Shown piece after piece: positions 15,682 through 48,279 of a stretch of 64,000 nucleotides of DNA. Under the pieces are notes generated by a model that was given only the letters and a program-made list of their open reading frames with translations, was not told where the DNA came from and made no database searches. The position numbers and the translations under genes are program-made. Position 1 is the stretch's first letter. Each line of letters opens with the position of its first letter. Source of the stretch: Chlorobium sp. Its GTDB lineage: Bacteria > Bacteroidota > Chlorobiia > Chlorobiales > Chlorobiaceae. The DNA is taken from assembly GCA_005862225.1 (NCBI GenBank), contig SZXV01000010.1, positions 124,001 through 188,000 on the forward strand, written 5' to 3'.

Positions 15682-16452
15682 TTAAAGGGTTTTGACTGGC
15701 GTAACGGTTGGCGGCAAAGGCTTCCGTTTGTGATACTTCTTTTCCCAGGCCTGAATGGAATGCGCCTCAAAAGTCCGTCGGCCAGTTTTTATCCCGGTAA
15801 TTTTCAGATACCTGCCTGGCACGAGCTGTGTTTTCTGTCGCACCTCTGCATTTTTGATGTCAACACGCCATAGCCCTTTCCTGAAATCTCTCAGCACAAG
15901 CGAATGGTTAATAGTGTCTGTCTGAATGACCTTTCCTCCAAGCAAACCATGTTGTGAATTGGTCCAGCGCTGTTCATTGGCTATGATCAAATTATTATAA
16001 ACATGAACGTTTTCAATAAGATAACGATGAATATAACCGCCAACATCAACAGTATTCAGACCAACACTGAGGAAAAGACTTGCAAAAATGGAGGCTGCAA
16101 TAACCTTCGTCGCAGAGTATCGGTAACCTTTTTTTGTGTGCCGAAACCCAAAAAATGCAACCAGTGTAAACAGGCCAAGAGCTGCAAGCCAAATATAGGG
16201 GATACTTGATATGACATCAGCAACGAAGGGTCGTTCAATAAAAAAACGGTTGATATAATCTTGATCCTCTATAAAATCGTTGTCAAGAAAAACATAAAGA
16301 GCCGTTGCCATCGATAACCCGCCGGTTAAAACCGAAATTGAGGCAAGCAACCAAAAACCGAACCGCTTCAGAAGAAAACGCCACCGTGGAATCTGCTCCA
16401 CATGCCTTTTTTCAATTTCTTCCAGAATACATTCTGATCTGTTCTTTTGCAT
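15682..16452 (-). CDS. membrane protein encoded with an ECF sigma factor, possible anti-sigma factor
   Basis: A 256-residue protein of no family I recognise. It has a soluble N-terminus of about 30 residues, three hydrophobic segments (about 30-52, 82-104, 115-137), and then a C-terminal extracytoplasmic region (about 145-256) that looks beta-rich and OB-like. It starts 12 bp after the sigma-factor stop codon, so the two are co-transcribed. ECF sigma factors are normally encoded next to their membrane anti-sigma factors, which makes that role the first guess. The cytoplasmic part contains no zinc-binding H-x3-C-x2-C of the ZAS type. It could instead be a target of the sigma factor. Confidence 0.6.
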   Translation of the reverse strand: MQKNRSECILEEIEKRHVEQIPRWRFLLKRFGFWLLASISVLTGGLSMATALYVFLDNDFIEDQDYINRFFIERPFVADVISSIPYIWLAALGLFTLVAFFGFRHTKKGYRYSATKVIAASIFASLFLSVGLNTVDVGGYIHRYLIENVHVYNNLIIANEQRWTNSQHGLLGGKVIQTDTINHSLVLRDFRKGLWRVDIKNAEVRQKTQLVPGRYLKITGIKTGRRTFEAHSIQAWEKKYHKRKPLPPTVTPVKTL

Positions 16453-16464
16453 AAGACCACACCA

Positions 16465-17046
16465 CTAAACCTTTTCTAATAAATATTTGATTTTTTTCTT
16501 GGCACGATTAACCAGTGTCGCAACTGTCCCTTGAGGTATCTGTAAAATATCAGATATCTCTTCATAGCTTTTTTCTTCAAAAAATTTCAGCACAATGACC
16601 TCTCGATACCTTGTCTCGATCCGGTTCACCGCTTCCTGAATTTCCTTTACGGTGTGCCTTTGACCTGCAAACTCAGTCAAGCCTGCGTCTGCTGCAATAT
16701 TTTCAAAAAAGCCATCACTCTCCCCCTTTATTAAAACGCTTGGGCGACTCCGTTCCTTTCGAAAATAACTTACTATTTCGTTATGGGCGATTCTGTAGAT
16801 CCAGGATGAAAACTGGAGTGAAGAATCGTAATCATTAAGATGAACAAACGTTTTGATGAATACTTCCTGAAGCAAATCCTCGGCTGCGGAATAATCCTTA
16901 CACCCCAAACGGACGATATATCTCAAAAGAGGTGCCTCATAGCGATGAACAATGGCGGCAAAAGCCCGTTTATTTTCAATCGCTCTGGCAACCAGCTCCT
17001 GATCAGTGTCGTGTAACTGTTCTCGACGTGTGGAAGTATGGGCCAT
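16465..17046 (-). CDS. RNA polymerase sigma factor, ECF (sigma-70 region 2 and 4)
   Basis: A 193-residue RpoE-type sigma factor. Region 2 is visible at about 25-100 (Y-S-A-A-E-D-L-L-Q-E-V-F-I-K and the -10-binding F-S-S-W-I-Y-R-I-A-H-N). Region 4 lies at about 130-190 (E-V-I-V-L-K-F-F-E-E-K-S-Y-E-E-I, then the helix-turn-helix I-P-Q-G-T-V-A-T-L-V-N-R-A-K). Regions 1 and 3 are absent, as expected for ECF. It heads a two-gene unit with the membrane protein. It lies 158 bp downstream of the last nitrogenase-like gene on the same strand; whether it belongs to that transcript is not clear. Confidence 0.92.
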   Translation of the reverse strand: MAHTSTRREQLHDTDQELVARAIENKRAFAAIVHRYEAPLLRYIVRLGCKDYSAAEDLLQEVFIKTFVHLNDYDSSLQFSSWIYRIAHNEIVSYFRKERSRPSVLIKGESDGFFENIAADAGLTEFAGQRHTVKEIQEAVNRIETRYREVIVLKFFEEKSYEEISDILQIPQGTVATLVNRAKKKIKYLLEKV

Positions 17047-17204: not shown

Positions 17205-18527
17205 TTATGCCTCCTGAATCCTGTGACCTGATGCTGCAAGAAGTGCACTTCCAACATCTTCCAGCAGAGTTATTGCGCCACGATAACCAACCGTGCAACG
17301 GTTCAGTACCACCCTCTCTACCAAAGGAAATGAAAGCTCTAAAAACGGCACCCCCATCTCAAAAGCCACCTCTTTTTCAAGAGCACTGCCAAGCACCAGC
17401 TCAGCGCTGCTGGAACGCAGCCGATCAGTAATCTCACCGTGATCTTCGCTGAAAAACAGCTCAGTACCATAACCTTCCACAAAACTTGTCACGTATGAAT
17501 AAAGCGTCTCTCTTGCATGATCAGGCGGATTATCCGTCATAATTAACAGACGAGGAATCATACCGAGAGTTCCGGCTAAAAACTCACTGAAGCCAGCCAC
17601 CTGGGCGCTCTCTCCAACAAGAGCAAATTCACGCTGAAACCCTGAGCGATAATAAGTATCAGCAAGAGCTGCAAGATGATTTGTTAAACGATTCTCTTCG
17701 TCCTGAATAACTCTTTCAGCTCTTCTGGTGTCGAGATGAAGCCGTTCAGTGACAGCTTGCAGCATTCTTCCACTTGCACGACCTACAGGAAGAGCATCGA
17801 GCACAAGAGCCGGGGTTCCATAACGCTCTTCCAGAAGCTGAGCTGGAGTTTCACCCCAAACAGAAACAACAAGGTTCAGAACCGCCTCCGGAACCTGCTG
17901 CCACGCAGCAAGGCCCTGTCCATTGCCAAAAAGAAGATTTGGTTTAAGACCGACAGTTTCCAGCAAACGACCAATCTCCTCCAGATTTCCAAACCAGAAT
18001 GGATCCTGTTGAGGAACAATTCCCCAGATATTGACGATACTGTCCGATACCGGTTCTGCGACCTTCCCAAGTTTTGGTAATTGTTCAATCAGTGCCTTTA
18101 TGGTCAACTGATATCCTTGATGAACATCTCCCCGAAAACCGGGAGTATTGGCATAGATCACCGGGAAATCCTGTTCACGACCTTCTTTTGTCATGGCAGG
18201 GATATCGTCACCCACCATTTCAGTCGAGCACCCGGTTACAATGACATAGAGTTCTCCCTGAATAATTTTGACCGTGTTTTTGAGCTGTTCACGTAAACGG
18301 GATCCTCCACCGAAAACGATGTGCTTTTGACTGATATTACTCGATGAAACCGATGGGCCACCGAAAGTATCGTTGCCCGCATTCAAACGGGTAATGCCCA
18401 GATGATGCTGCATCCCACATCCCGCAGTGCTGTGTATAACTGGAACCGCCCCTTCAATTGCGCCGATAACCTGAAGTGCACCATGCAGGGCACAGGAATT
18501 GCGTGATCCCTCAATATGATGGGCCAT
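17205..18527 (-). CDS. nitrogenase-like catalytic subunit, NifK-type (three cluster cysteines)
   Basis: A 440-residue member of the nitrogenase component 1 / DPOR-COR superfamily. The three cysteines that hold the interface cluster in NifK align well: Cys12 (S-C-A-L-H-G), Cys37 (A-G-C-G-M-Q) and Cys100 (T-G-C-S-T-E-M-V-G-D-D). The intervening H-I-V-F-G-G-G and N-T-P-G-F-R-G motifs are also typical. It starts one base after the stop of the D-like gene, so the two are probably made in equal amounts and form a complex. It is not BchZ or BchB by pattern, and green sulfur bacteria keep bch genes elsewhere. It lacks the N-terminal extension of true NifK. Last gene of the operon. The reaction is unknown; reductive cleavage of an organosulfur compound is inferred from operon context. 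Confidence 0.85.
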   Translation of the reverse strand: MAHHIEGSRNSCALHGALQVIGAIEGAVPVIHSTAGCGMQHHLGITRLNAGNDTFGGPSVSSSNISQKHIVFGGGSRLREQLKNTVKIIQGELYVIVTGCSTEMVGDDIPAMTKEGREQDFPVIYANTPGFRGDVHQGYQLTIKALIEQLPKLGKVAEPVSDSIVNIWGIVPQQDPFWFGNLEEIGRLLETVGLKPNLLFGNGQGLAAWQQVPEAVLNLVVSVWGETPAQLLEERYGTPALVLDALPVGRASGRMLQAVTERLHLDTRRAERVIQDEENRLTNHLAALADTYYRSGFQREFALVGESAQVAGFSEFLAGTLGMIPRLLIMTDNPPDHARETLYSYVTSFVEGYGTELFFSEDHGEITDRLRSSSAELVLGSALEKEVAFEMGVPFLELSFPLVERVVLNRCTVGYRGAITLLEDVGSALLAASGHRIQEA

Positions 18528-18528
18528 G

Positions 18529-19944
18529 CTACTTTACCTCCATTTTGATATGCCAATTGGCACTGCGTCGAAGCCAGGCATTCTGATAGACTGAAGGTGA
18601 ACGGGCAATTGCTGACGCAAAGGAGCGGTTGCGCAATGCAGCGGCAAATCGTCGTGCTGCAAAGATTAATCCGTTGTATCCAAGAATCGGACTCTCCTCA
18701 AGTGAAACGACCGGAATACCGAGGCGTCCAATCTGACTGAGGTGCGCTGCGTCGCCAAGATAAAGATCCGGAGATAATCGTTTTATAATATTCACCTCCT
18801 CAAATGGCTGACCATCTGCAACATGTATCGGCAACGCTGGATGCATCAGGGCAAGTTCATGCAGCCGGTGCTTATACCGGTGGTCAATGTAGCGGAACGT
18901 TATACCAATAACTTCGCCTCCCAGTTCCTCAACAAGATCCAGCACACTGAACAGTGTTGCTGCTGAAAGACCAAGATAAACCCGTACTCCCTTGAGAGTA
19001 AAATTCCCCAGTGATTGTTTGACTTTTTTACACTCCTGTTCATGAAACGTTTGAGCGGCTTCTTCAAGACCAAGTTCCTTGCCTGCGGCTGCAAGCCAGC
19101 GTCCTGTGGCGCCAAGACCAATCGGCCGTGGTGCTTCAACATAGGGCACTCCATACTCGTCATGCAGGCAGATTCCTATATAATTACTGCTGTCATCATC
19201 AAGTGAGATGGATAGCCTGGCTCTCTGAGCCTGACGGAATGTTTTTGCTGAGGCTCCATCTGGAAGAGTGTTCAACTCAAGACCAAACACAGACAGAAGA
19301 CGTTCAGCCTCCCGTTGATCATCGTTGTGCCCGGCAACCGAAAGCAAATTGATCCTGTTCTCGTGTTGATGTTCATCACTTCGTTTTCCGCCAAGATACT
19401 TAAGCAATGCGTGCAGCGCTATATCATAACCGGTCACAGCATGGTGAGAGGCAAAACCAGTAACATAGAGCGGAATAATATCCACGTCAAGCGCTTCGTG
19501 CAACTCGTCAACAACAGACTGGATATCATCATTATTAATCGCCACAACAGGAGTAGCCACAATAAAGATCAATTCCGGCTTATAACGCTTATATGCCTCA
19601 GTGACGGCTTTGCGCAGCTTCAGGTCAGCCCCCATAATGGTATCTCTTTCGTCGAGATTGGTTACAATCCAGCACCCGGCAGCAACGGTCAAATGATAAA
19701 AAAGACCGGCAGCAGCACATCCCCGTGAACCATGGATGACGATGACACTCTCCCGGATACTTGCCAGAAGCCGAAGAGCATGAAGAAGATCATCATGGCT
19801 GCTTTGTGAAAAAGTACGAGTTCGCTTGACGGGCTCTTTTGTGGAAAATTCTCTCTCAAGAGAGTCCACCGTTCCCTGCAACGCATTCAAGGTGTCAAGC
19901 CGCTTCTCTCGTGTAAGGGAGGATTTGGCTTTCAAAAGAGACAT
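18529..19944 (-). CDS. nitrogenase-like catalytic subunit, NifD-type, lacking FeMo-co ligands
   Basis: A 471-residue superfamily member that aligns with NifD through H-G-S-R-G-C (Cys76, equal to NifD Cys88) and N-N-D-D-I (139-141), then the segment with N-Y-I (254-256) and E-Y-G-V-P-Y, and finally G-Y-N-G-L-I-F-A-A-R near 422-431. Two of the three P-cluster cysteines are missing: the first position is in F-S-Q-S-S-H and the third is A-T-P near 130-132. Counting back from N-Y-I, the residue at the FeMo-co ligand Cys275 is Asp249, and the His442 position is Leu421. Only one cysteine is therefore available for an interface cluster, complementing three in the partner. The gene lies 31 bp after the H-like gene. 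The active-site content is unknown. Confidence 0.85.
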   Translation of the reverse strand: MSLLKAKSSLTREKRLDTLNALQGTVDSLEREFSTKEPVKRTRTFSQSSHDDLLHALRLLASIRESVIVIHGSRGCAAAGLFYHLTVAAGCWIVTNLDERDTIMGADLKLRKAVTEAYKRYKPELIFIVATPVVAINNDDIQSVVDELHEALDVDIIPLYVTGFASHHAVTGYDIALHALLKYLGGKRSDEHQHENRINLLSVAGHNDDQREAERLLSVFGLELNTLPDGASAKTFRQAQRARLSISLDDDSSNYIGICLHDEYGVPYVEAPRPIGLGATGRWLAAAGKELGLEEAAQTFHEQECKKVKQSLGNFTLKGVRVYLGLSAATLFSVLDLVEELGGEVIGITFRYIDHRYKHRLHELALMHPALPIHVADGQPFEEVNIIKRLSPDLYLGDAAHLSQIGRLGIPVVSLEESPILGYNGLIFAARRFAAALRNRSFASAIARSPSVYQNAWLRRSANWHIKMEVK

Positions 19945-19975: not shown

Positions 19976-20854
19976 TTAAATTGACGCCATATTATGAACA
20001 ACCCCGGACTCAACTTCAAATATTCTGTCGCCCCATGACCTTGCCCAGCGCTTTAATTCCGGAGCATTGAGAGGCTTTGGAATAACCGACTCCTCATTTT
20101 CATCAATATATCGAGCAAGATTGCGATAGACCTGAGCCTGCCCGGATTCAGGAAGCGCCTCAATGACCGTCTTGCCATAAAGTTCACTTTGTGCAACAGT
20201 GATGGATCTTGGCACATACCCCACGACGGTCGTCCCTGTTTGATCGGTAAAATCATCGATCAATGATTTGGCATAGGCCGCCTGAATACTGTTTGCTATT
20301 ACTCCTCCCAGTCGTGCGCCTCCCGATGGAGCGTATTTGTTTACGGCCTTGAAAAGATTGTTTGCTGCAAAAACCGCCATAAAATCCGATGACGTCACCA
20401 CAAAAACCCTGTCCGCAATACCATCCCGGATTGGAACCGCAAAACCCCCGCACACCACATCTCCCAAAACATCATAAAGCACAAAATCAGGCTTGTATTC
20501 TTCGAAGAGCTTCAATTCCTGCAAGAGTTCAACAGCCGCATTGATACCTCTTCCAGCACAACCAACTCCTGGAACAGGCCCCCCTGCTTCAATGCAAAGC
20601 ACACCACCAAAACCAACGGCGGAGACATCCTCGATCCTGACTTTACTCTGTTCACGCAGTGTGTCGAGTACGGTAGGCAGGTCATTTCCTCCACGCAGAA
20701 TCGTCGTTGAATCGCTTTTAGGATCGCATCCTATCTGAATAACCCTGTAACCTGCCTCGGCAAGCGCAGCACTGATATTGGAAGTCGTCGTGGATTTACC
20801 GATTCCCCCTTTGCCGTAAATCGCAACATGCTTGCCTTGTTTTTTTTCACTCAT
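19976..20854 (-). CDS. nitrogenase-like iron protein (NifH/BchX-type ATP-dependent reductase)
   Basis: A 292-residue homodimeric Fe protein that would pass electrons, driven by ATP, to the D/K-like complex. The P-loop G-K-G-G-I-G-K-S-T is at 14-22. The two [4Fe-4S] ligands are Cys99 (G-V-G-C-A-G-R-G) and Cys135 (D-V-V-C-G-G-F). Switch I (G-C-D-P-K-S-D-S-T) and the Arg102 that is ADP-ribosylated in NifH are present. The reading frame is open 45 codons further upstream, but the ATG at 20854 is preceded by AAGGAGT at ideal spacing and starts at the conserved family N-terminus. It is closer to NifH-like group IV and BchX proteins than to true NifH by eye; this needs a tree. Confidence 0.93.
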
Positions 20855-20885
20855 CTCAATACTCCTTTTTCTTGATTCTATATTG

Positions 20886-21686
20886 TCAGGCAATCCCCGC
20901 TTGACGCAGACCCGGCCAGGCTGATCCGCCGAGAGTGAACCCACCGCCCGAGATATCCAGCCGTGCACCTGAAATAAAAGATGCCTCATCAGAAAGAAGC
21001 CAGATGATGGGTTTGGCTATCTCTTCAACAAAGCCAGGACGACCTATCGGAATGGTTGAGGAGATCTCTTCAAGGATTTGCTGATCGGCCGCATAGACAG
21101 CAGTCATCTCTGTAAGGGTAAAACCGGGTCGCACAGACACTGCTCGTATTCCCTCTGAAGCTACTTCCTTCGCCAGGCCAACAGTAAAAGCATCAACCGC
21201 ACCTTTGGTGGCGGCATAAAAAGAGGCGCCCGGACGCCCTCCTATGGTTGAAGCCATCGACGAGATATTGATGATGACCCCACCCTGCCCCCCATGAACC
21301 GTAGACATCCGACGCACGGCCTCCTTTGTTGAAAGAATCAGGCCGACGACATTGATTTGAAACAGATGCTGCAGCCGGGCAGCATCAGCAGCATCAACAC
21401 GCGTGGGACCAGTACCCATACCAGCGCTGTTGACAAGCGCCGTAACCGTTCCAAGTTTTTCATCAACCTCCCTGTAGAGCCGCTCAATATCCTCTGGCCT
21501 TGCAATGTCTGCATATACCGCTATTGCTCGAACACCTCTCTCTTTCAATTTTTCAACAAGACGATTGGCCTCCTGTTCTCTGGTACGATAGTTGACAGCT
21601 ATCGAGTATCCTTTTTCCGCAGCGAGTCTGGCTGTTGCCGCACCAATCCCGCTGGCCCCTCCTGTAATGACCAATACTTTCGACAT
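20886..21686 (-). CDS. short-chain dehydrogenase/reductase (SDR)
   Basis: A 266-residue NAD(P)-dependent oxidoreductase of the classical SDR type. It shows T-G-G-A-S-G-I-G (about 8-15), N-S-A-G (about 88-91, usually N-N-A-G), the catalytic Ser (I-N-I-S-S-M, about 143) and Y-A-A-T-K (about 158-162), with P-G-F following. FabG-like, including R-P-G-F-T-L-T-E-M. The start chosen is the ATG at 21686, where [10 protein letters not shown] begins. It sits between a radical SAM gene and the Fe-protein gene, 31 bp before the latter, so it is part of the nitrogenase-like operon and may act on the same substrate or its carbonyl/alcohol product. Substrate unknown. Confidence 0.9.
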
Positions 21687-21911: not shown

Positions 21912-23105
21912 TCATGCCACCAGGCCCTTGAAAACCGGCAGCATTTCATCTTCAATCCGATAAATATCATGGATTATCGTTATTGGGGCTGCATAGCAAT
22001 CATAGATCTCCTCGTAGGTAAAACCGTACTTTCTGTAGATAGCCGCTATTTTCTTGTAAAGATCAAAATGCCAGGCTGGTTCTGGTGAACGATGTCCCTC
22101 AAAAGCAGAGCCCGGATTCGGATTCCAGCTTGTCGCAAAACAGATAACACCCTTGGATGCCAGATATTCAATACCTTCAAGTGTTGACTCCTTCGGTTCA
22201 AGGCCTGCCACGATGTTTGAACGCACCTTGCCCCGGCCAAAGACCTCCACTTCATACTCCAAAGCCTTGACCCAATGCTCCCAGCCACCACACTGCAGCT
22301 CCTTTCCGGGGCAGATCGCCTTAAACATATTTCTGTCCCAGACCTCAATATTGGTCGCAATGGTGCGATACCCGGCTTCCTTGTACTTGTCAATGATATT
22401 CAGGTCATGAGGAGCACCGACACAGGCCGTGCCGTTAAAATCATCCAGTCCGGTATGTTCCTTGATGGCATCTGCCACATCCAGGTAATACTCCACTTCA
22501 CGACGCTCAGCCACAAAACCGCCTGTTATGGTGAGATGACGCGCCCCATCCCGGTATGCCGCACCAACCGTTTCTCCGATCTGCTTTGGATATTTCCAGC
22601 CGATACCCTCTGCTTCGCCATAGGTATCTTTCGTCGCATTGATGTTGCAGAATTTGCAGTCCTGGCCTTTATCTTTCAGGGCACATTCGTTGCTGTAAGG
22701 AATAAGCAGCACTCCATCCTGAACATAGAGCGCCAGATTGGCCATGCTTGTTCCATCCGAAGTTTTCAGTTTGTAATAGTTTGGCCGCTCAAGAAATTCA
22801 ACCGGAAATATGATTTCTCCATGATGGGCCAGATAGTAGGTCCCCTTTTCATAGATAAATGAGTATGAAGAGCGGCGATCCCACTTGACGGTATAGACCA
22901 GACCGTGTGGAGAGCGGTAACCTGCCGGAAACTTGATTCCAACATGAGTCTCATGGTCTCCCTCGAAAAGACAGTGAACTTCCTCCTGAAAGCGTCCACC
23001 AAGGTCAAGGTGTTTAAAAATATGAGGATCAAAGTTGATGCCTTCAACCCCTGTTAATATTTTTAATTCCAGTTCCCGATACAATGTTTCTTTAAGATTA
23101 CTCAT
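21912..23105 (-). CDS. radical SAM protein with CX8CX2C cluster motif (paralogue 1)
   Basis: A 397-residue protein whose only cysteine cluster fitting a radical SAM site is Cys141-Cys150-Cys153 (C-A-L-K-D-K-G-Q-D-C-K-F-C), a CX8CX2C spacing in place of the canonical CX3CX2C. A glycine-rich T-I-T-G-G follows near residue 198, at the place of the SAM-binding GGE motif. The region N-I-E-V-W-D-R-N-M-F (about 249-258) is shared with the second radical SAM protein of this operon. The N-terminal 130 residues are a separate beta-rich domain. It could assemble or modify the cofactor of the nitrogenase-like enzyme, or act on the substrate. It is not NifB by motif. Position: between the ABC ATPase and SDR genes. 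Confidence 0.82.
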   Translation of the reverse strand: MSNLKETLYRELELKILTGVEGINFDPHIFKHLDLGGRFQEEVHCLFEGDHETHVGIKFPAGYRSPHGLVYTVKWDRRSSYSFIYEKGTYYLAHHGEIIFPVEFLERPNYYKLKTSDGTSMANLALYVQDGVLLIPYSNECALKDKGQDCKFCNINATKDTYGEAEGIGWKYPKQIGETVGAAYRDGARHLTITGGFVAERREVEYYLDVADAIKEHTGLDDFNGTACVGAPHDLNIIDKYKEAGYRTIATNIEVWDRNMFKAICPGKELQCGGWEHWVKALEYEVEVFGRGKVRSNIVAGLEPKESTLEGIEYLASKGVICFATSWNPNPGSAFEGHRSPEPAWHFDLYKKIAAIYRKYGFTYEEIYDCYAAPITIIHDIYRIEDEMLPVFKGLVA

Positions 23106-23158: not shown

Positions 23159-23935
23159 TTATATCGTATAGGTGAAATGAGGCTCGGTGTGCAGCATAAA
23201 CTCCTCAAGCACTTTTTCTTTCATTTCAGCAAACTCAACACTTGCCCGATCCCGTGGCCGTGCAAGTGGAACAGGAATAATTTTCTGTAATTTTCCTGGC
23301 CGTGCAGACATCACAACAATTTTATCCGAAAGATAAAGGGCCTCTTCAACATCATGAGTGACCATGATCATGGTTATATTTTCTTTCTTCCATATCCGCT
23401 CAAGCTCCTTGTGCATATACATTCTTGTTAAAGCATCAAGCGCACCAAGCGGCTCATCCAAAAGCAATATTTCAGGTTGATTGACAAGAGACCTTGCTAT
23501 TGCAGCTCGTTGTGACATTCCGCCGGACAATTGATATGGATAACTTTTTTCAAAGCCTTTCAATCCTACCAGTTCAATATGGTTGTTGACTATTTCCTTT
23601 TTCTCTGTGTCACTTTTACCGACAATGCCAAGCCCTATATTTTTTTCAACCGTCAGCCATGGAAAAAGGCGATGATCCTGAAACACAATTCCCCTGTCAA
23701 GACTTGGTCCGTTAAGTTTTCGCCCATCAAGAAGAATATCACCTTCATAGTCAGATTCTAACCCGACAATAAGTCGCAAAAGTGTTGTTTTTCCGCAACC
23801 GCTCAAACCAATAATGCTTATAAACTCTCCTGCCTTGACTGATAAGTTGATATTATCGAGAACATGAATTTCATTATTATTAACACGAAATTTTTTACTC
23901 ACATTCGTTACTGAAAGTGTTCCTGTACTTTTCAT
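23159..23935 (-). CDS. ABC transporter ATPase, nitrate/sulfonate/taurine type
   Basis: A 258-residue ATP-binding subunit of the SsuB/TauB/NrtD class, energising uptake of an oxyanion-like solute. It shows Walker A (G-L-S-G-C-G-K-T-T, about 43-51), the Q-loop (V-F-Q-D-H-R-L-F), signature L-S-G-G-M-S-Q-R, Walker B ([11 protein letters not shown]) and H-loop (V-T-H-D-V-E-E-A). It ends 53 bp before the radical SAM gene and begins 4 bp after the second permease, and partners the two permeases and the binding protein of this operon. The family imports sulfonates, sulfate esters, taurine, nitrate or thiamine precursors. The sulfur-linked leader favours a sulfur compound. Confidence 0.92.
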
Positions 23936-23939
23936 TGAT

Positions 23940-24737
23940 TTATCTTGATTGTTTCAATGTCAGTCTCCAGAAAGAGAAAAACATTTCCATTTTTTGCATA
24001 AAAAAATTCATTGTAAATCCAACTAATGCGATTGCAATAATACAGACAACAACCAGATCCATTCTGGAATATTCTCTGCACGCCCACATCATTTCACCAA
24101 TACCGCCTCCAGAGGTCATAAATATTTCAGCAGCAACAACCAGCATCCACGAAATACTCAAACTGAGTCGTAGTCCGGTCAGCGTTGAAGGAAAACTTGA
24201 CGGCAGAATAATTTTAAAAAAACGTTGAACTCTGTTGAACTTGAATACCTTTCCAACTTCGACATAATCGTTTCTGACATTTTTTACCCCTTCGAACGTA
24301 TTCAGAACAACAGGATAACAGGCTCCAATTGCGATAAAAAGCACACGGGACATTTCACCAAGACTGACCAGAACCAATAACGGAGCCCATGCGGGCAAGG
24401 GCACCTGCCGGATTGCATTAAAAATCGGAGTTATCAATTTTTCCAGAAACCTCGACATTCCGAGAGTTATTCCTATAACAAACCCGACTGTCGAACCAAG
24501 AAGAAAACCTTTCAATACCCTGATGACACTCATACCAAGATTATCAAGAAAACTTCCATCATTCAGGACTTCATGAAAGCCATTCACGACATCTCCAGGA
24601 GAGGGAAAAAAATCTTTTGATAGAATATTGAGCCTTGAACAGATCAGCCAGATAACAAAAATCGTTCCCGGAAGAAGAGTGCCTTCAAGCACTTTAATGG
24701 GCAAATATTTATTCCCCCTCACAGACAAAAAACTCAT
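23940..24737 (-). CDS. ABC transporter permease (SsuC-like) 2
   Basis: Inner-membrane permease of about 265 residues with six hydrophobic segments and the BPD_transp_1 EAA-type loop (the E-V-G-K-V-F-K-F-N region followed by I-L-P-S-S-F-P near residue 170). It is homologous to the first permease gene, so the transporter is a heterodimer. The start at 24737 (M-S-F-L-S-V-R-G) is preferred over an upstream ATG that would overlap the preceding gene by 53 bp. Two different permeases are less usual in this class, where a homodimer of one SsuC is normal. Confidence 0.88.
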
Positions 24738-24741
24738 GATT

Positions 24742-25524
24742 TTATTTTTTTGAGAGTGGACGATGCCAGCTAATAAGAGAAACTTCGAGAGCATTAAGTG
24801 TCAGAAACATCAGATATCCGATAGATCCAACGACTGCAATCCCCACAAAAACAATATCCATTTGAAACAACTGTCGCCCCCAGACAATAAGGTATCCGAC
24901 TCCCTCACCTGCCGCAACAAGTTCAGCTCCGACAACAAGCATCCACGACATGCCAAGTGCCAGTTTGATTCCTGTAAAAAGAGAAGGCAAGGCCGCAGGC
25001 AAAAGCACTTTATGAAGCAGCTTGGCTGAACTGAATTCAAAAGCACGGGCGACCTCAAGGTATGATCTGGGAACCCCGTGGATTCCTTCAAAGGTGTTGA
25101 TCAACATCGGGAAAAAAGCCCCAAATGCTATAAAAACAACTTTGAAGGTCTCTCCTATTCCAAACCAGAGCATCAACAGAGGAATCCAGCCGAAAAGCGG
25201 CACCTGACTCAAGGCGCTGAGCAACGGCGCTATAATACGTTCCGACCTTGGTGAAAGAGCCATCACCGTGCCAAAAATAAAACCAAGGGTGGCACCGAGA
25301 ACAAATCCAGTCAACACCCGATACATGCTGATCCGAAGATGCTCCAGCAATTCTCCTGTACTGATCAAGTCAAAAAAAGTAATCAGTACCTTGTGCGGAG
25401 CCACAACAATCTGTGATGGGAAAATTTCAAGCTTGCAGATTATTTCCAGGCCAATAACGAGCAGAACAGGAACGATAAACCCGATAAGAATTGTCTTGAC
25501 CTGTGTTTCTCCCTTAGTGTTCAT
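24742..25524 (-). CDS. ABC transporter permease (SsuC-like) 1
   Basis: A 260-residue inner-membrane permease with six hydrophobic segments and the family loop (E-V-A-R-A-F-E-F then V-L-L-P-A-A-L-P). The start at 25524 (M-N-T-K-G-E-T) overlaps the MFS gene by 11 bp, showing tight coupling. An upstream in-frame ATG would extend it deep into the MFS gene and is unlikely. Together with permease 2 it forms the membrane channel for the SsuABC-like importer. Confidence 0.88.
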   Translation of the reverse strand: MNTKGETQVKTILIGFIVPVLLVIGLEIICKLEIFPSQIVVAPHKVLITFFDLISTGELLEHLRISMYRVLTGFVLGATLGFIFGTVMALSPRSERIIAPLLSALSQVPLFGWIPLLMLWFGIGETFKVVFIAFGAFFPMLINTFEGIHGVPRSYLEVARAFEFSSAKLLHKVLLPAALPSLFTGIKLALGMSWMLVVGAELVAAGEGVGYLIVWGRQLFQMDIVFVGIAVVGSIGYLMFLTLNALEVSLISWHRPLSKK

Positions 25525-26737
25525 TGCTATACTCCTTGTTGAATGGCTGAACCAATAACGCGTCATCCACAACAGCGGCAGGGGCATTGTGACGCAGATA
25601 AAGTCTGACCGAGAGTGCCAGATAAAGAGGTATAAAAATCAGAAACACAGACCTTGCTCCGAAGAGCTCTCCTGCAAATCCTCCAACGACCGGTCCAATA
25701 ATTGAACCGGCTATAGTAAACATGGCAAACATACCCGCAGTCCTTCCTTTATCAACATTGGCGTATGCGATACGAGTCACATTAACCAGATTGAACATGC
25801 CAAGTCCGATTCCGACAAATACAGTGCCGATAACAAGGAAGAGTGGATGCCATAAACTGGAGAGAAATATCAGACCTGTAACGACAAAGGCAATACTTGT
25901 CAGATAAAAGCGACGTTCCCCGAGCCTGTCAAGCAGACGCCAGAGGGTAAACAGTGTTGCAATAAAAACCAGACCCTCTAATGACACAAACAATGACGCG
26001 ACCTGTGCCGAGATATGAAAAACACGAATCGCAAGAACAATGATAAAAGCATTGAAACATGAGAAGGTAGCCAGCGCCAACGCTTCTGCACTGGATGCCT
26101 CAAGGATATTGTGATCATGAAAAAGCTCCTTGACATGCCTCCATCTTTCAACAAGCGTACTTGCTCCGGAAGCTTTGGCATTAGGGAAAATGGCAAGCGC
26201 ACCAACGATCAGAAGAAGGACAGATACACTGACAGCATAAAAAGTGGCATTAAACCCCCAGTATTTACTCATGAACGCTCCGGACAATGGGCCAAGAAAT
26301 ACCATCCCGAATGAATGTGATCCCCTCTGCCAACCAGCCTTGTCACTGCCAATTGTCTTCACAAACTCCAGAAAAACGCTGCTCATCGGAATAAACCTGA
26401 ATGCAGAAAAAAAACCGACGATCGCAACGAAGTAGCAAAGAGTCTGTGATGAGTTCGCAAAGGGAAAAAGGAGATACAGAAGTGCCGTTGCCACAGCTCC
26501 AAAAATAAACACTTTCCTTGGGCCAACATGATCAACCAGAAAACCAATCGGCAACACCGTCAAAAGCAGACCAATTCCCTGCGCACCGCCGATCAATCCA
26601 ATCTGGGAGCTTGTCGCTCCAAGCTGTACGGCATAAAGTGTTATTGCAATCTGTGCAATCCCCATCCCCATTCCACCAAGAACAGAGAGAAACATAAACT
26701 GCACAAGCAGCTTGTTTTGACTTATTGACTCTGTCAT
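25514..26737 (-). CDS. major facilitator superfamily transporter
   Basis: A 407-residue MFS protein with about twelve hydrophobic segments and the loop-2 signature G-F-L-V-D-H-V-G-P-R-K (about 61-71), which resembles the canonical G-x-x-x-D-R-x-G-R-R/K. It starts 3 bp before the end of the FMN-barrel gene region and overlaps the next permease. Its place inside the operon suggests it moves a product out (for example the desulfurised residue) or a second substrate in. Specificity cannot be read from sequence. Confidence 0.88.
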   Translation of the reverse strand: MTESISQNKLLVQFMFLSVLGGMGMGIAQIAITLYAVQLGATSSQIGLIGGAQGIGLLLTVLPIGFLVDHVGPRKVFIFGAVATALLYLLFPFANSSQTLCYFVAIVGFFSAFRFIPMSSVFLEFVKTIGSDKAGWQRGSHSFGMVFLGPLSGAFMSKYWGFNATFYAVSVSVLLLIVGALAIFPNAKASGASTLVERWRHVKELFHDHNILEASSAEALALATFSCFNAFIIVLAIRVFHISAQVASLFVSLEGLVFIATLFTLWRLLDRLGERRFYLTSIAFVVTGLIFLSSLWHPLFLVIGTVFVGIGLGMFNLVNVTRIAYANVDKGRTAGMFAMFTIAGSIIGPVVGGFAGELFGARSVFLIFIPLYLALSVRLYLRHNAPAAVVDDALLVQPFNKEYSNEH

Positions 26738-26739
26738 GA

Positions 26740-27204
26740 CTATTGCCTCAATAAATCCAGATGGCTGTGAAACAAGCCTCTCTCTTCCTTTGCAAGAGAG
26801 CTTCGGTAGGCAGGAGATTCGTTTCGAATCTCTTCAGGCGTAATGACCCAGACACCCGCAATATCAGCCTCGGGGCCTCTTCTTTCCCGAGCCCGTTCAA
26901 GCATCTGCCTGAAAATGGCACCAGTAATCAAGTATTTGTAGGGATAACCCTTTATTTGATAACTGATAAGGCCCTTTGTAATATTAATGGCAACTTTTTT
27001 GTCGAACCAGATACTCCTGACCAGATTTTTATTACTGATCGAACTCTCGACCCCTTCCGCAAAAACAATTGTTTCATCATCAAGAGTGGTCAACGAGCCC
27101 TTGAAAACAACGTGAGGCACGCCATCACCATCAATGGTTGCGACCACTTTAACACTCCCCGTATCCTTAAGCAGACCAAGCAGCTCTTCCGGTAGTTTAC
27201 TCAT
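26740..27204 (-). CDS. pyridoxamine 5'-phosphate oxidase-like FMN-binding split-barrel protein
   Basis: A 154-residue flavin-type split-barrel protein. The N-terminal half has the pattern V-A-T-I-D-G-D-G-V-P-H-V-V (about 20-32), typical of PNPOx-like domains, followed by strand V-A-I-N-I-T-K and Y-P-Y-K-Y-L-I-T-G-A. The PLP-synthesis residues of true PdxH are not apparent. Such proteins often bind FMN, F420 or heme and reduce small organics. It has only one methionine after the start and no cysteine. It lies 17 bp after the second radical SAM gene. Role in the pathway unknown; a flavin-dependent step on the imported compound is plausible. Confidence 0.8.
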   Translation of the reverse strand: MSKLPEELLGLLKDTGSVKVVATIDGDGVPHVVFKGSLTTLDDETIVFAEGVESSISNKNLVRSIWFDKKVAINITKGLISYQIKGYPYKYLITGAIFRQMLERARERRGPEADIAGVWVITPEEIRNESPAYRSSLAKEERGLFHSHLDLLRQ

Positions 27205-27221: not shown

Positions 27222-28475
27222 TTAGTTTAAGCGTTCCAGATCACTGTCGCCATGATTGCCGCAGTGTTTGAAATCATCGTTATCAGATGCAAGACCATAG
27301 CTTTTGCGAATCTCAACCAGTCCTTTAATCAATCGTACATAGTATTCGAGCGGTGGCTGCTCTTGCCCAGCCAACCCGGTGCTTTTCCAGGGCGTCCAGA
27401 CAAGACTCAGATAGATCACGCCATTTTTTGCGAAATACTCGCAAGCCTCAAAGTTAGAATCAAGCGCCTGCTCAATGCTTGTGAACCCATGGGGCTTCGC
27501 AAATTCGACACCTGCCACGAAATTGGTATAGACATTGCCTTTGCCAAATATTTCAACCGCATCAAGAGCACTCTTGATCCAGTAATCGCGGCCAAACCAC
27601 TTCTCCTTGCCACTGCAGATCCACTTAAAAAGATCCTTATCCCACACCTCAATATCCGGGCAGTAAGAAGAAAGACCCGTTTCATCATGAAGCCTTTTAA
27701 CTTGCTGCTTTGTATATGCAGGAGCAATTAACTGGCTGGGAAATCTTCTTGTTTTGAAGTTTCTTCCGATCGCCTGAAGCACCTCGATGTATCGTTCCAC
27801 CTCTTTATCGAATGGCACTTCGCCGGAATAATCCGTTCCTGCGGTCAAATTAATCTGGGAATATCGACCAGGCTCCTTCAGTGCTTCATGAACCGTCTCA
27901 TAAATATCTTCGGGATGAATGACCTTCTCATAGTTGTCACCAGCCGCCTGTTTCTGCTGTTTCAAATCGGTAAAAAATGCGCAGAATTTGCATTGATCCC
28001 TTGTGTCCCAGTAATGGCAGTATCGGTATGGAATAATGTCAAGGCGCTGAGGGCGAGACCAGGCAATTGATTCCATTGGAACACCGCGACTTGTCAACTT
28101 CCCATAAAAATCCGGTCTTGGTGAAAAATCAACCTCGTCAATCACCTGGCCTTTATCAAGTACGTAAAATTTGCCATCAACATGATCAATGGTGTACGGA
28201 TCAGAAAATTGGTTTTTCACCGGAGAAGCCAGCACGCTTGTGCCATCACGAAGAAGCAGTGGGCCGGGAAAAGGACGTTCCTGTTTTGCGCCTCCTGAAA
28301 ATGCTGTCTGTGCCGGACCTCGATAGTAAGGAGCATAGGTGGCTTCTGTCGTCGCATCAGTAAACGCTATCCCCCGTCTTTGCAAATCAAGTTTCAGAAT
28401 GACCGACTTTGGAACATCAGCATATTTTTCACTGAGGGCGGCAACACCAGGATTATTATTAATTGTCATTTTCAT
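27222..28475 (-). CDS. radical SAM protein with CX8CX2C cluster motif (paralogue 2)
   Basis: A 417-residue paralogue of the 397-residue radical SAM protein of the same operon. The cluster cysteines are Cys153-Cys162-Cys165 (C-H-Y-W-D-T-R-D-Q-C-K-F-C), again CX8CX2C. The shared block I-E-V-W-D-K-D-L-F-K-W-I-C-S-G-K-E-K and the later V-E-I-F-G-K-G-N-V show common ancestry. Having two such enzymes in one operon with a nitrogenase-like trio suggests two maturation steps or a heteromeric enzyme. It begins 69 bp after the binding-protein gene, with a hairpin in the gap. I do not know a characterised member with this cysteine spacing. Confidence 0.82.
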   Translation of the reverse strand: MKMTINNNPGVAALSEKYADVPKSVILKLDLQRRGIAFTDATTEATYAPYYRGPAQTAFSGGAKQERPFPGPLLLRDGTSVLASPVKNQFSDPYTIDHVDGKFYVLDKGQVIDEVDFSPRPDFYGKLTSRGVPMESIAWSRPQRLDIIPYRYCHYWDTRDQCKFCAFFTDLKQQKQAAGDNYEKVIHPEDIYETVHEALKEPGRYSQINLTAGTDYSGEVPFDKEVERYIEVLQAIGRNFKTRRFPSQLIAPAYTKQQVKRLHDETGLSSYCPDIEVWDKDLFKWICSGKEKWFGRDYWIKSALDAVEIFGKGNVYTNFVAGVEFAKPHGFTSIEQALDSNFEACEYFAKNGVIYLSLVWTPWKSTGLAGQEQPPLEYYVRLIKGLVEIRKSYGLASDNDDFKHCGNHGDSDLERLN

Positions 28476-28544: not shown

Positions 28545-29582
28545 TCAGTTCCAGAAATTTTCAAGCTTCAGCTCTTTTAATGCTGCATCCAAATAACTTC
28601 TGTCGATCCATGTGTTGACGTCAAACGTATTTCTTATCAGTCCCTTTTCTTTTGCGAAGACAATGCCGCCTGCATAATGATTTACATAGTCTTTATCAAA
28701 CAGAACATCATTAACATCCTTCAGGGTACGACCTTCGATTTCTTCAAGTGCTACAGCACGAGGCGTGCCTCCTTTGACAGCGATGTCCAGATATTCATTC
28801 CGATTTTTCTCATCAGATGCCCATTTAGCCGCCTCAACATACACTTTGACGATGCGCCTTGTTATATCAGGATATTCTTTTGCAAACTTTTCTGTCACAT
28901 AGAATCCACCTGTATTGCGCCAGTCACGCGGGCTCTGTTTTGTTGAATAAATAATTTTTGCATTACCCTGACTGCGAAGCAGCAATAGATTTGTCCAGGA
29001 AACAGATGCATCAATATTTTTTGTTTTCAATGCTGCATCAAGATCTGCAATACCGAGATTGTAAATTTTCAGATCACTCTCTTTCAAATTATTTGCCTCA
29101 AGAATGCGGGATAATGTCAGATGCGCATTTGTTCCCTTGAAAAGACCAACCCTCTTGCCTTTCAGATCTTTTATCGAGGTTATTTTCGAATCGTTTGGCA
29201 CGCCAACATAGACATTGGTATACTTGGAACCTCCTGCGATGAACTTTGTTTTCAGTCCGCCAGCTCTGCCAACAATTGCAGGAAGATCACCGATGTAAGC
29301 AAAATCAATTGCATGGTTTGCAAGCGATTCATTGGTTGCGGGCCCCGCACCTTTGAAAAAAGCCCAGTCAAATTTTATTCCGTCATTTTTAAACTCCTCT
29401 TCGAGAAGACCTTTGGCATGCACAATACCGATGATACCGGCGCCATACGGTTTTCCATAACCAGCAGAATATGCTGACCCGATACGAACAATATTTGGTT
29501 TGTTTTGAGCCGCCTGCGATGAAGTCCCGCCAAAAACAATGACAGTAATCAGGGCGACAATGATTGCGAATGTATGTTTCAT
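28545..29582 (-). CDS. periplasmic substrate-binding protein, SsuA/TauA/NMT1-like, free of Cys and internal Met
   Basis: A 345-residue periplasmic binding protein for the SsuABC-like importer. The signal peptide (about 1-25) ends at S-S-Q-A-A. The mature part has the NMT1/SsuA-type order: I-V-H-A-K-G-L-L-E-E-E-F, then I-D-F-A-Y-I-G-D-L-P-A-I, L-K-G-K-R-V-G-L-F-K-G-T, and D-A-S-V-S-W. I read no cysteine and no methionine after the initiator in the whole protein, a sulfur-sparing composition known from sulfur-starvation proteins. A GGAGAG ribosome site precedes the ATG. It follows the porin gene by 33 bp. Confidence 0.92.
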   Translation of the reverse strand: MKHTFAIIVALITVIVFGGTSSQAAQNKPNIVRIGSAYSAGYGKPYGAGIIGIVHAKGLLEEEFKNDGIKFDWAFFKGAGPATNESLANHAIDFAYIGDLPAIVGRAGGLKTKFIAGGSKYTNVYVGVPNDSKITSIKDLKGKRVGLFKGTNAHLTLSRILEANNLKESDLKIYNLGIADLDAALKTKNIDASVSWTNLLLLRSQGNAKIIYSTKQSPRDWRNTGGFYVTEKFAKEYPDITRRIVKVYVEAAKWASDEKNRNEYLDIAVKGGTPRAVALEEIEGRTLKDVNDVLFDKDYVNHYAGGIVFAKEKGLIRNTFDVNTWIDRSYLDAALKELKLENFWN

Positions 29583-29615
29583 GATGATACTCTCCAGAGA
29601 AATGAAATTGATTGA

Positions 29616-30935
29616 TTAAAAGGTGTACTGAAGCTGAGCAAGAAACTCATTGTTGGCAACCTGGTTGCTCTCCTCAGTTATGATGTTGTAATTGATCTGC
29701 AGCTTGGTGGTCTGGGCAAAAAACCAGTTAAGTCCGATGGTGGTGATATCTTTCCGGTTGCCATTGACGCTCGTATCCGGATCCCAGCGATCAAACCTCA
29801 CGAAAGGCTGAAAAGTGGTTGGATACCAGTCATCATAGCGATCCTGGGCTTTATAACCACTGACGAATTGTTCACCCTGGTTGTAAAAAACGGTAACCGT
29901 ATGCCCACTCTTTTTGATCGTCCCATCCTCTCCTCTTGCATACTCAATGGTGAAGCCAACAGGAGTATTGACATAAGAGAGATCAAAACCGCTCCTGTTT
30001 TTTTCCACATTACCCAGGGAGCCACTCTTGCCAGAGTAATAAGAGGCTCCAAACGATAAGCCGCGAAAGACTGACGAATAGTCAACAGGAGCATTGAGCA
30101 CAATCCTGCCCGAAATATCTTTATGTTTATTGTCGTCGGAAAGCGTGGAATAGCCATACGCGTCAGAACCTCTGCCGTTAAGAATGCCTACTGAGTATTC
30201 GATGGCAGGAACGCGATAGCGAAATCCGGGGTCAAATTGTGGAAATAAATCTCCTTTAATGACAATTCCGAGATCACGCGCATCAAGATCAATCCCTGTG
30301 CCAGCTCTTGCAGATTGTGCAAGTTTGATCGTCGGTTTTTTATCTTCTCCGGCAAGAGCTTCAAGACCAAAAGGTTTTTTCTGCTTTCCAGCAGTGATAC
30401 TTAAAAGCGGATCTTCAGGATTCAGAGAAGGCAGAATAAAGGCCGTGATATAGGCATCAAGAGGACTTACCCTGAAATCCGTGGTGCCATCTGCATTTGC
30501 TCCACTTGGAGATGCAAGACTGAACAGATAGTTGACATTACGTCCCTGTTCGTAATCTCGCTTGAGACTTCCCTGAAAATTGAGCACAAGCGCATTCAGG
30601 TCAAAACCATTCCTGGTCGCATTGTGCTGTGTCGAGTATCTGAGTTGGGCGATGCCTGTAAAAATAAGAGAACGCTGCGTGCGCGCTGTATTGTTTTCAA
30701 GCGTCCTCTGCCACAACTCCTGTAATGTTGCAACCTCGCCCCTGACGCCCTCGAGTTCCTCTCTGGTAACCGGCGTCTCTGCCTTTACCGGTTCATCGAC
30801 CGCAACAACTTCAGCATTACCCGGACGAGATGCAGCGACCTTCGTATCAACTGTACTCTTGTCAGCAGCTTGCAGATTGGCATTACCAATCAAAAAGCTT
30901 CCGATAAGAAATATTCCAATTTTAATTTTACTCAT
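29616..30935 (-). CDS. outer-membrane porin (phosphate-selective porin O/P-like), free of Cys and internal Met
   Basis: A 439-residue outer-membrane beta-barrel protein, first structural gene of the operon. The signal peptide is about 1-23 (ending L-Q-A-A-D). A short coiled-coil segment follows (E-E-L-E-G-V-R-G-E-V-A-T-L-Q-E-L-W, about 58-74), then alternating beta strands and a C-terminal Phe (L-A-Q-L-Q-Y-T-F), the normal barrel insertion signal. From the ATG at 30935 there is no cysteine and no further methionine. An ATG 13 codons upstream lies close to the terminator hairpin and is less likely. It would let the substrate through the outer membrane. Confidence 0.88.
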   Translation of the reverse strand: MSKIKIGIFLIGSFLIGNANLQAADKSTVDTKVAASRPGNAEVVAVDEPVKAETPVTREELEGVRGEVATLQELWQRTLENNTARTQRSLIFTGIAQLRYSTQHNATRNGFDLNALVLNFQGSLKRDYEQGRNVNYLFSLASPSGANADGTTDFRVSPLDAYITAFILPSLNPEDPLLSITAGKQKKPFGLEALAGEDKKPTIKLAQSARAGTGIDLDARDLGIVIKGDLFPQFDPGFRYRVPAIEYSVGILNGRGSDAYGYSTLSDDNKHKDISGRIVLNAPVDYSSVFRGLSFGASYYSGKSGSLGNVEKNRSGFDLSYVNTPVGFTIEYARGEDGTIKKSGHTVTVFYNQGEQFVSGYKAQDRYDDWYPTTFQPFVRFDRWDPDTSVNGNRKDITTIGLNWFFAQTTKLQINYNIITEESNQVANNEFLAQLQYTF

Positions 30936-30957
30936 GATGATGTGATTCAAATTATTT

Positions 30958-30996
30958 AAAAAAAAAGCCGACACTTTGACATTAAGAATCGGCTTT
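30958..30996 (-). terminator. intrinsic terminator between leader ORF and first operon gene (attenuator)
   Basis: On the minus strand an 8-bp stem (AAAGCCGA with TCGGCTTT; 30989-30996 and 30964-30971) with a 17-nt loop is followed by a run of nine T (the stem's last three included) at 30966-30958. It lies 28 nt after the leader stop codon and 22 nt before the porin start, so transcription must pass it to enter the operon. This is the layout of a transcription attenuator. A further AU hairpin (31004-31023, 8-bp stem) lies just upstream. Confidence 0.85.
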
Positions 30997-31024
30997 CGTA
31001 TAAACTTTTTTCTATAAAAAAGTA

Positions 31025-31108
31025 TTATTCGATAGCAATAAATTTAATGCTCAGATATTGTTGTAACCAACAACAACAGCAAAAAAATAATACAGGAGTT
31101 ATTTTCAT
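31025..31108 (-). CDS. 27-residue leader peptide with four consecutive cysteines
   Basis: A 28-codon ORF including TAA, starting at the ATG at 31108 and reading M-K-I-T-P-V-L-F-F, then Cys-Cys-Cys-Cys (TGC TGT TGT TGT, 31081-31070), then W-L-Q-Q-Y-L-S-I-K-F, ending in A-I-E. It lies about 85 nt downstream of the predicted transcription start and directly before an intrinsic terminator. This is the arrangement of ribosome-mediated attenuation, with stalling at Cys codons when charged tRNA-Cys is scarce. The Cys codons overlap a possible hairpin (31058-31063 with 31068-31073 or 31071-31076). There is no clear Shine-Dalgarno site. The ORF is read directly; the regulation is inferred. Confidence 0.82.
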   Translation of the reverse strand: MKITPVLFFCCCCWLQQYLSIKFIAIE

Positions 31109-45282: not shown

Positions 45283-45596
45283 GCGTAATGCTTGTTATTT
45301 CTTGTTTTTTTCCGGAAGCGTTAACAGGTTTTGTTTACTGCCTGTCAGCAAAGGGTAAACCACAAAGAATGAGGCTTTGGACTATTTCCGAGGCTTTTTT
45401 TGCCGGTTATAGTAGTTCCCTCCATTTTTCAAAGTCGTAGAGATCCTGCACCAACGCAACCTTGTCGCTAATATAATCGTAATATCTGAGTTTGCCTTGC
45501 TTTTGCGCTTAACCACCCATGCCGAAGCAAGAGGCAGCAGACGGCACTGAGCAAAGTGATACTGCTCCACGCCCCGAAACTGTATGGCTAACGCTG
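45283..45596 (-). pseudogene. 314-bp gap with the 3' remnant of an unidentified minus-strand gene
   Basis: No intact gene. On the minus strand a frame ending at a TAA near 45415 reads Y-Y-D-Y-I-S-D-K-V-A-L-V-Q-D-L-Y-D-F-E-K and then W-R-E-L-L, which looks like a real C-terminus, but the frame is broken a few codons upstream. It abuts the left edge of the 896-bp duplication at 45597, so insertion of that segment may have destroyed the gene. Identity unknown. Confidence 0.4.
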
Positions 45597-45925
45597 GGGG
45601 CCCAACCGATATCACGCGCGGAGCGCTGCCATTTGTTTTAGCGAACTCTGCCCTTCAGGCTGGCGATACGGTAATGATAATGTTATTCCATGATGCGGTT
45701 ACTATCGCGCTTGACGGTGCCCACCCCAAAATGATTCCGTTCGGCCCGCCTTCTCGATTTGAGGAGATTTTCTCTAACCCCAGAGCCCAAGTCATCGTAT
45801 GCAAGCCCTGCGCCGAGATTCGAGGTATTGAGGAACACATGCTGGTAAAGAATGCCTCTTTCGGAGGCATGAACGATCTTCATGCGCATGCATCGCGCCC
45901 TGACGCAAAACTGATCAGTTTCTAA
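45584..45925 (+). pseudogene. DsrE-like gene, copy 1, 5'-truncated by duplication
   Basis: This copy encodes the same DsrE-type protein as the intact gene at 47926-48279, but its first codons and ribosome site are missing. The homology begins at G-P-T-D-I-T-R-G, and the upstream codons (M-A-N-A-G) come from unrelated sequence, with no Shine-Dalgarno site. Only three substitutions separate it from the other copy, one changing Phe to Leu. It retains the C-K-P-C motif. It is probably not translated, unless by read-in. Confidence 0.7.
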
Positions 45926-47925: not shown

Positions 47926-48279
47926 GTGCATTACGTCATTCCCACAACCTGGGGCCCAACCGATATTACGCGCGGAGCGCTGCCATTTGTTTTCGCGAAC
48001 TCTGCCCTTCAGGCTGGCGATACAGTAATGATAATGTTATTCCATGATGCGGTTACTATCGCGCTTGACGGTGCCCACCCCAAAATGATTCCGTTCGGCC
48101 CGCCTTCTCGATTTGAGGAGATTTTCTCTAACCCCAGAGCCCAAGTCATCGTATGCAAGCCCTGCGCCGAGATTCGAGGTATTGAGGAACACATGCTGGT
48201 AAAGAATGCCTCTTTCGGAGGCATGAACGATCTTCATGCGCATGCATCGCGCCCTGACGCAAAACTGATCAGTTTCTAA
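47926..48279 (+). CDS. DsrE family protein, intact copy 2
   Basis: A 117-residue protein starting at GTG 47926 after a clear GAGGAG site. The fold pattern is DsrE-like: D-I-T-R-G-A-L-P-F-V-F-A-N-S-A-L-Q-A-G-D-T-V-M-I-M-L-F (about 13-39), then a central D-G-A-H-P-K and V-I-V-C-K-P-C-A-E (about 75-83) with a C-x-x-C. DsrE proteins are small sulfur-carrier or sulfurtransferase-like proteins; many green sulfur bacteria have dsrEFH for sulfur oxidation, but this is an orphan outside such a cluster. The gene body is duplicated at 45597, where the start is lost. Confidence 0.82.
   Translation: MHYVIPTTWGPTDITRGALPFVFANSALQAGDTVMIMLFHDAVTIALDGAHPKMIPFGPPSRFEEIFSNPRAQVIVCKPCAEIRGIEEHMLVKNASFGGMNDLHAHASRPDAKLISF

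Follow-up and report, generated by a model that had tools for sequence, protein, structure and literature searches.

Genes and features of the locus

The window analyzed here, i.e., the whole stretch of 64,000 nucleotides from a Chlorobium sp. contig (the closest relatives of the source are named Chlorobiaceae), carries on its reverse strand a short ORF with a run of cysteine (Cys) codons, a hairpin, and an operon that begins with genes for a porin and a substrate-binding protein (SBP):

31025..31108 (-), candidate leader peptide (27 codons, four Cys codons in succession at 31070-31081), predicted from sequence
30958..30996 (-), intrinsic-terminator-like hairpin in the gap between leader and porin, with an 8-bp stem (AAAGCCGA/TCGGCTTT) and a T run
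29616..30935 (-), sulfur-free porin, 439 aa, Porin_O_P (PF07396; C-terminal match only)
28545..29582 (-), sulfur-free SBP, 345 aa, aliphatic-sulfonate (SsuA) subfamily
27222..28475 (-), radical SAM protein 1 (NF045502 variant), Cys kept, methionine (Met)-poor
26740..27204 (-), small PNPOx-like (FMN-binding-type) protein (Pfam 22.5 bits, under the 28.1 cut-off)
25514..26737 (-), major-facilitator (MFS) transporter, not sulfur-depleted
24742..25587 (-), ABC permease 1 (SsuC-like), not sulfur-depleted
23940..24794 (-), ABC permease 2, not sulfur-depleted
23159..23935 (-), ABC ATPase, not sulfur-depleted
21912..23105 (-), radical SAM protein 2 (NF045502), Cys kept, Met-poor
19976..20989 (-), NifH-like reductase (MarH-like), matching from residue 53; the actual start codon probably lies within the ORF
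18529..19944 (-), NifD-like subunit (top PDB match 9fmg chain A, methylthio-alkane reductase, E 2.8e-42)
17205..18527 (-), NifK-like subunit (top PDB match 9d9u/9fmg chain C, E 3.8e-78; next 1e-27)

The porin scored 46.5 bits against PF07396 (gathering cut-off 20.9) over residues 375-439 only, while the SBP scored 169.9 bits against TIGR01728, above the curated cut-off of 163.5, and had SsuA (3uif) as its top PDB match (E 1.9e-48). A sequence-only reading of the window had claimed that both proteins lack Cys and any Met other than the initiator. Both translations bear this out: the porin read from the ATG at 30935 (439 residues) and the SBP read from the ATG at 29582 (345 residues) each contain 0 Cys and a single Met, the initiator. 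An alternative, longer porin ORF from GTG 30974 would include one extra Met; as this GTG falls within the terminator region and the start of most orthologues corresponds to the MSK... codon, the porin probably begins at 30935. Elsewhere in the window, near-identical pairs of small ORFs occur about 2.3 kb apart, at 45584-46397 and 47926-48751.

Cys and Met content within the genome

To put these compositions in context, we used a sample of the same genome (20 stretches plus the window), which supplied 333 ORFs for calculation of the mean composition (Cys 1.04%, Met 2.14%) and 239 ORFs of at least 250 aa. At the proteome mean, 13.9 sulfur residues would be expected in the porin and 10.9 in the SBP, as compared to 0 observed in both (Poisson P(0) = 9e-7 and 2e-5, respectively); chance as the cause of the absence was rejected on these values together with the orthologue set described below. 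Taken alone, the porin is less striking against porin baselines, with P(0) = 9e-4 when paralogous porins are taken at 1.7% and P(0) = 0.017 against the phosphate-linked porin family. Only four of the 239 sampled proteins of at least 250 aa were free of Cys and internal Met, i.e., the operon porin, the operon SBP, the sulfate-binding protein, and a Porin_5 protein encoded beside PstS (the phosphate-linked porin).

The sequence-only reading had proposed a comparison with the other binding proteins and porins of the genome. For binding proteins the expected difference was found, as the other SBPs contained 4.3% (ModA-like), 2.4% (second PstS) and 3.7% (NMT1-type) Cys+Met, the sulfate SBP being the other protein at zero; the PstS of this genome had 8 Cys+Met residues after position 25. 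For porins the difference held only in part, as the general porin had 2 Cys and 1 Met after residue 25 and the phosphate-linked porin had none. The porin contrast within this genome alone is thus weak, and the case for the porin rests on its orthologues and on paralogues elsewhere.

Orthologues across the class

Orthologues were sought among 98 genomes of the class and translated via tblastn, and their composition was counted after residue 25. Porin homologues gave 28 matches in 27 of the 98 genomes, and the porin gene was adjacent to the SBP gene in all 20 of the larger loci fetched. The 28 porin orthologues, with identities down to about 40%, together contained 0 Cys and 8 Met in 12,150 residues (0.07%); each had 0 to 2 internal Met, and 22 had none. 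The SBP set comprised 26 loci (L008-L033), with two fragments (L034, L035), two distant matches (L036, L037), a second copy in genome G036 and weaker rows excluded; these SBPs contained 7 Cys and 10 Met in 8,300 residues (0.2%), and 13 of the 26 had neither. For the sulfate SBP, the phosphate-linked porin and PstS, the sets were the 30 best-scoring loci of longer lists. Sulfate-binding proteins showed 3 Met in 9,208 residues (0.03%; best 30), as compared to 2.80% Cys+Met in PstS (best 30) and 0.99% in phosphate-linked porins (best 30). The orthologue comparison that the sequence-only reading had called for thus separates operon porins (0.07%) from phosphate-linked porins (1.0%, best 30), and depletion tracks sulfur uptake across the class.

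Outside the Chlorobi, 62 relatives of the SBP (one of them a 34-residue fragment) had a mean Cys+Met content of 0.21%, and 38 of them had none. Such depletion across phyla suggests that the SBP trait marks the role of the protein more than this particular operon, and that it is wide and probably old; in the SBP it may thus have been inherited.

Copies of a second porin family with and without a Cys leader

A second porin family was represented by 30 loci and 40 hand-picked stretches, 20 of which were chosen mostly for nearness to a sulfate SBP; one gene occurs twice among them (L189/L263), and L226 and L227 are identical rows from two genomes. The rows with at least 250 nt upstream were grouped by the number of Cys+Met after residue 25, i.e., zero (31 rows), one (4 rows, two of them a single gene fetched twice) and two or more (34 rows). 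An ORF with adjacent Cys codons was present upstream of 26 of the 31 zero rows, 2 of the 4 one rows and 0 of the 34 two-or-more rows; 24, 2 and 0 of these, respectively, also had a terminator behind the leader. The Cys-pair leader was missing upstream of five of the 31 sulfur-free copies. The difference between the zero and two-or-more groups gave P = 1.7e-13 (Fisher's exact test), a value uncorrected for shared ancestry; an independent-pairs test of leader against depletion, corrected for phylogeny, gave 3:0 and was not significant (P = 0.25). On the tree, from which the partial row L178 was omitted, the sulfur-free label needed 5 changes, 4 of which were forced by supported branches. The zero and two-or-more groups differed in Cys (0.0 vs. 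0.5%) and Met (0.0 vs. 1.2%) and were otherwise similar in amino acid make-up.

Many genomes have the sulfur-free copy within about 20 kb of the sulfate SBP gene, and in the source genome the sulfur-free member of this family is the first gene of an operon with sulfite-reductase-like, CysH, CysD and CysN genes. Paralogous porins in the same genomes contain up to 15 Cys+Met. One locus (L237; G039:C6:1900-6500) carries two porins in tandem. Cys and Met are absent after residue 25 from the first, which follows a Cys leader; the second has no leader of its own and contains 3 Cys and 3 Met.

Cys-codon leaders and terminators

Cys-codon leaders were also frequent at the sulfur-uptake genes themselves. 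A Cys-pair leader preceded 24 of the 27 operon porin loci with enough upstream DNA, 18 of them with a terminator as well, and 27 of 28 sulfate SBP loci (among the best 30), 26 with a terminator as well. Among the best-scoring control loci, a leader was found at 4 of 30 phosphate-linked porins and 6 of 29 PstS genes, and a leader with terminator at 0 of 30 and 0 of 29, respectively. In the window, the leader region (30950-31095) folded at -36 kcal/mol (z = -4.84), which was better than 200 of 200 shuffled sequences; a search against Rfam gave no credible match to this region (best E 0.57, under the gathering score). Antiterminator duplexes had mean z values of -1.2 to -1.8 against shuffled sequences in three families, and minimum-energy folds retained the local terminator pairs; these values modestly support an antiterminator pairing. 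A Cys-sensing attenuator at the leader is likely but unproven.

In the source genome, a Cys-rich leader with terminator stands before four units, i.e., the window operon, sulfate uptake (a sulfate SBP with a Cys leader, upstream of CysT/W/A-like genes), sulfate reduction and cysteine synthesis. Scanning the same genome for a pattern of Cys codons with a terminator yielded 47 matches as compared to 21 for the reversed pattern, indicating that the matches are mostly due to chance. Of the 30 scan matches examined as loci, L275 alone combined a poly-Cys leader with a strong terminator. In L284, a 10-codon ORF with two Cys was followed by a strong hairpin, and the three known leader units were among the scan matches outside these 30 loci. 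The scan thereby added the fourth poly-Cys leader of the genome, with five Cys in a row and a strong terminator. In the unit at L306:7-4957 (G000:C2:194006-198956), this leader precedes genes for a DUF4395 protein and two PLP enzymes, one of the Cys/Met-metabolism type and one cysteine-synthase-like.

Cysteine-codon leader peptides have reportedly been described by Canestrari (2020). Cys-codon leaders in Actinobacteria are the subject of passages in PMC1262725, which report no terminators found in Mycobacterium, and a passage of PMC8632094 covers the cysS motif, a Cys-codon leader ending in a terminator. Like the known leaders, those found here are short ORFs that contain runs of Cys codons and lie upstream of cysteine or sulfur genes; they differ in occurring in Chlorobia, ahead of genes for porins, for binding proteins, for the reduction of sulfate and for the synthesis of cysteine.

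Enzymes and transporters of the operon

Depletion did not extend evenly through the operon. Over 3-4 loci each, the permeases (3.8-3.9% Met) and the ATPase (3.3% Met) were not depleted, while the radical SAM proteins (0.2-0.4% Met), the MarD-like (0.3%) and the MarK-like subunit (0.7%) were Met-poor with Cys kept. In the source genome, the MarD/MarK-like domains contained 9 Met in 800 residues, as compared to 93 in 3,235 residues of eight paralogues (P = 0.0035); the difference in Cys between the same domains and paralogues was not significant. This pattern fits a cost that scales with inferred protein abundance, with Cys retained where it may bind metal clusters.

By sequence similarity, the terminal nitrogenase-like enzyme is nearest to methylthio-alkane reductase: the NifD-like subunit scored 148 bits against it as compared to 74 bits against the next group of solved nitrogenase-like proteins, and the NifK-like subunit 266 as compared to 100 bits. 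PDB entry 9FMG is named as methylthio-alkane reductase in a passage of PMC12552129. Unlike methylthio-alkane reductase with its NifB-type MarB, which was not recognized among the operon ORFs scanned, the operon carries two NF045502 radical SAM genes instead.

Nitrogenase-like genes were present in 3 of the 20 fetched porin loci (L066, L067 and L068); a further locus, L085, shares the radical SAM genes with these three and its contig ends ahead of the nitrogenase-like position. In L067 and L068, radical SAM protein 2 occurs in three tandem copies, and an extra radical SAM gene follows the NifK-like gene. A double-cubane-cluster reductase (NF040772, below cut-off) was seen in a porin-SBP operon that has no nitrogenase-like genes (L078:12978-14956), accompanied by an acyl-CoA dehydratase activase-like partner (TIGR00241, above cut-off). 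Both genes were found in L078, L079, L080, L083 and L084 and partly in L075, L081 and L082, between the SBP and the permeases or nearby, and the pair is a candidate alternative for organosulfur reduction. Past the end of the operon lie genes for an ECF sigma factor and a neighboring 256-aa protein (window 15682-17046; L078:100-1435; L079:351-1712). These two are 78-86% identical between loci and flank both the nitrogenase-like and the double-cubane version, an arrangement that suggests one chromosomal slot whose inner genes may have been exchanged.

Explanations for the absence of Cys and Met

One explanation is that beta-barrel porins and periplasmic proteins are generally poor in Cys and Met, so that both sequences would be ordinary for their compartment. 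The phosphate-linked (zero) and general (three Cys+Met after residue 25) porins of the source genome and the single-porin P(0) of 0.017 fit such a bias, and it accounts for part of the own-genome porin signal; it was rejected as a full account given the orthologues and the second porin family, and we regard it as quite improbable, since PstS (2.8%) and phosphate-linked porins (1.0%; best 30 each) of the same compartment, paralogous porins of the same genomes (up to 15 Cys+Met) and other own-genome SBPs (2.4-4.3%) are not depleted alike. Inheritance from old sulfur-free ancestors, with no present-day selection in Chlorobia, is unlikely in our judgment. It would agree with the 38 of 62 SBP relatives outside the Chlorobi that stand at zero (the 62 including the 34-residue fragment) and with PDB 1SBP, the sulfate-binding protein of Salmonella, which has no Cys or Met in residues 5-307. 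However, the operon porins are still nearly Met-free at identities as low as about 40%, the state of the second porin family has changed at least 4 times on supported branches, and the leaderless tandem duplicate in G039 holds both Cys and Met.

Green sulfur bacteria live with sulfide, and Cys and Met might be avoided owing to damage by envelope sulfide, polysulfide or oxidants and not for sulfur economy. We give this little credence: although the strongest depletion is indeed found in envelope proteins, PstS and leaderless porins retain Cys and Met in the same environment, the MarD/MarK-like subunits (expected to be cytoplasmic) and the operon radical SAM proteins are Met-poor, and the link between depletion and sulfur acquisition was found among envelope proteins of one compartment.

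A probable sulfur-starvation role for the operon

We consider it likely that the porin and SBP form the extracellular entry of an operon that scavenges organic sulfur, that their Cys and Met were purged by selection, and that the operon belongs to a starvation regulon attenuated by cysteine. The sequence-only reading, in which the operon serves sulfur-starved cells and spares sulfur, is supported with reservations, as depletion tracks sulfur uptake among orthologues and the sulfur-free copies of the second porin family go with the Cys leader. Composition, conservation, gene order, the leader-terminator layout and the contrast with paralogues without a sulfur role are properties of the sequences themselves. 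High abundance of the proteins and their induction when cysteine runs short are inferred, and so are the substrate and the reaction catalyzed. A role in sulfur acquisition is predicted for the SBP from its family, and for the porin from its constant adjacency to the SBP and the content of the operon.

Under sulfur shortage, low charged Cys-tRNA would stall the ribosome on the run of Cys codons in the leader, so that an antiterminator would form in place of the terminator and the operon would be transcribed. Porin and SBP would then be made in large amounts, for which Cys and Met would have been selected out of them. The porin would let in a sulfonate or other organosulfur compound and the SBP would pass it to the ABC transporter, and the sulfur would be freed by the radical SAM and nitrogenase-like enzymes. 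This enzyme cassette behind the porin and SBP is the least expected part of the locus.

The sulfate-binding protein 1SBP is a homologue of the sulfate SBP of the source genome (E 1.7e-130) and its aligned residues lack Cys and Met; it binds sulfate, whereas the operon SBP falls in the sulfonate (SsuA) family. Unlike the operon SBP, SsuA (3uif) has a few Met in the aligned part, and unlike SsuA, the operon SBP has radical SAM and nitrogenase-like genes as neighbors and a substrate that is only predicted.

That sulfur amino acids are spared under starvation had been put forward as a known phenomenon, and this agrees with a passage of PMC7661421, according to which a lack of Cys and Met in sulfur-acquisition proteins is widespread (citing Mazel and Marliere 1989). 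The proteins described here are, as in that passage, sulfur-acquisition proteins low in Cys and Met; they differ from the known cases in that an outer-membrane porin is included, in Chlorobia, and in the repeated change of state inside one porin family, paired with Cys-codon leaders. Among titles and opening lines of abstracts, with most subscription journals outside the scope of the search, we found no report of sulfur-free porins or cysteine leaders in Chlorobi; sulfate assimilation is mentioned as possible in photoferrotrophic Chlorobi in a passage of PMC5498476.

Overall, sulfur sparing is already known, and the Chlorobia case is a well-controlled and well-supported new example. Arguments for element sparing have usually relied on individual proteins. 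In the present case, paralogous porins of the same genomes with and without a Cys-codon leader differ chiefly in Cys and Met, so that selection on cost is testable within one family. The finding also delineates, in green sulfur bacteria, a group of sulfur-assimilation genes that are probably controlled by cysteine, and it suggests candidate enzymes for anaerobic organosulfur metabolism. More tentatively, and with doubt outweighing confidence, Chlorobia may have one cysteine-attenuated regulon that combines abundant sulfur-free envelope proteins with exchangeable cassettes for anaerobic C-S cleavage, i.e., a nitrogenase-like reductase in some species and a double-cubane reductase with its activase in others. 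If this is true, the double-cubane reductase would gain a physiological role as a reductase of organosulfur compounds, e.g., sulfonates.
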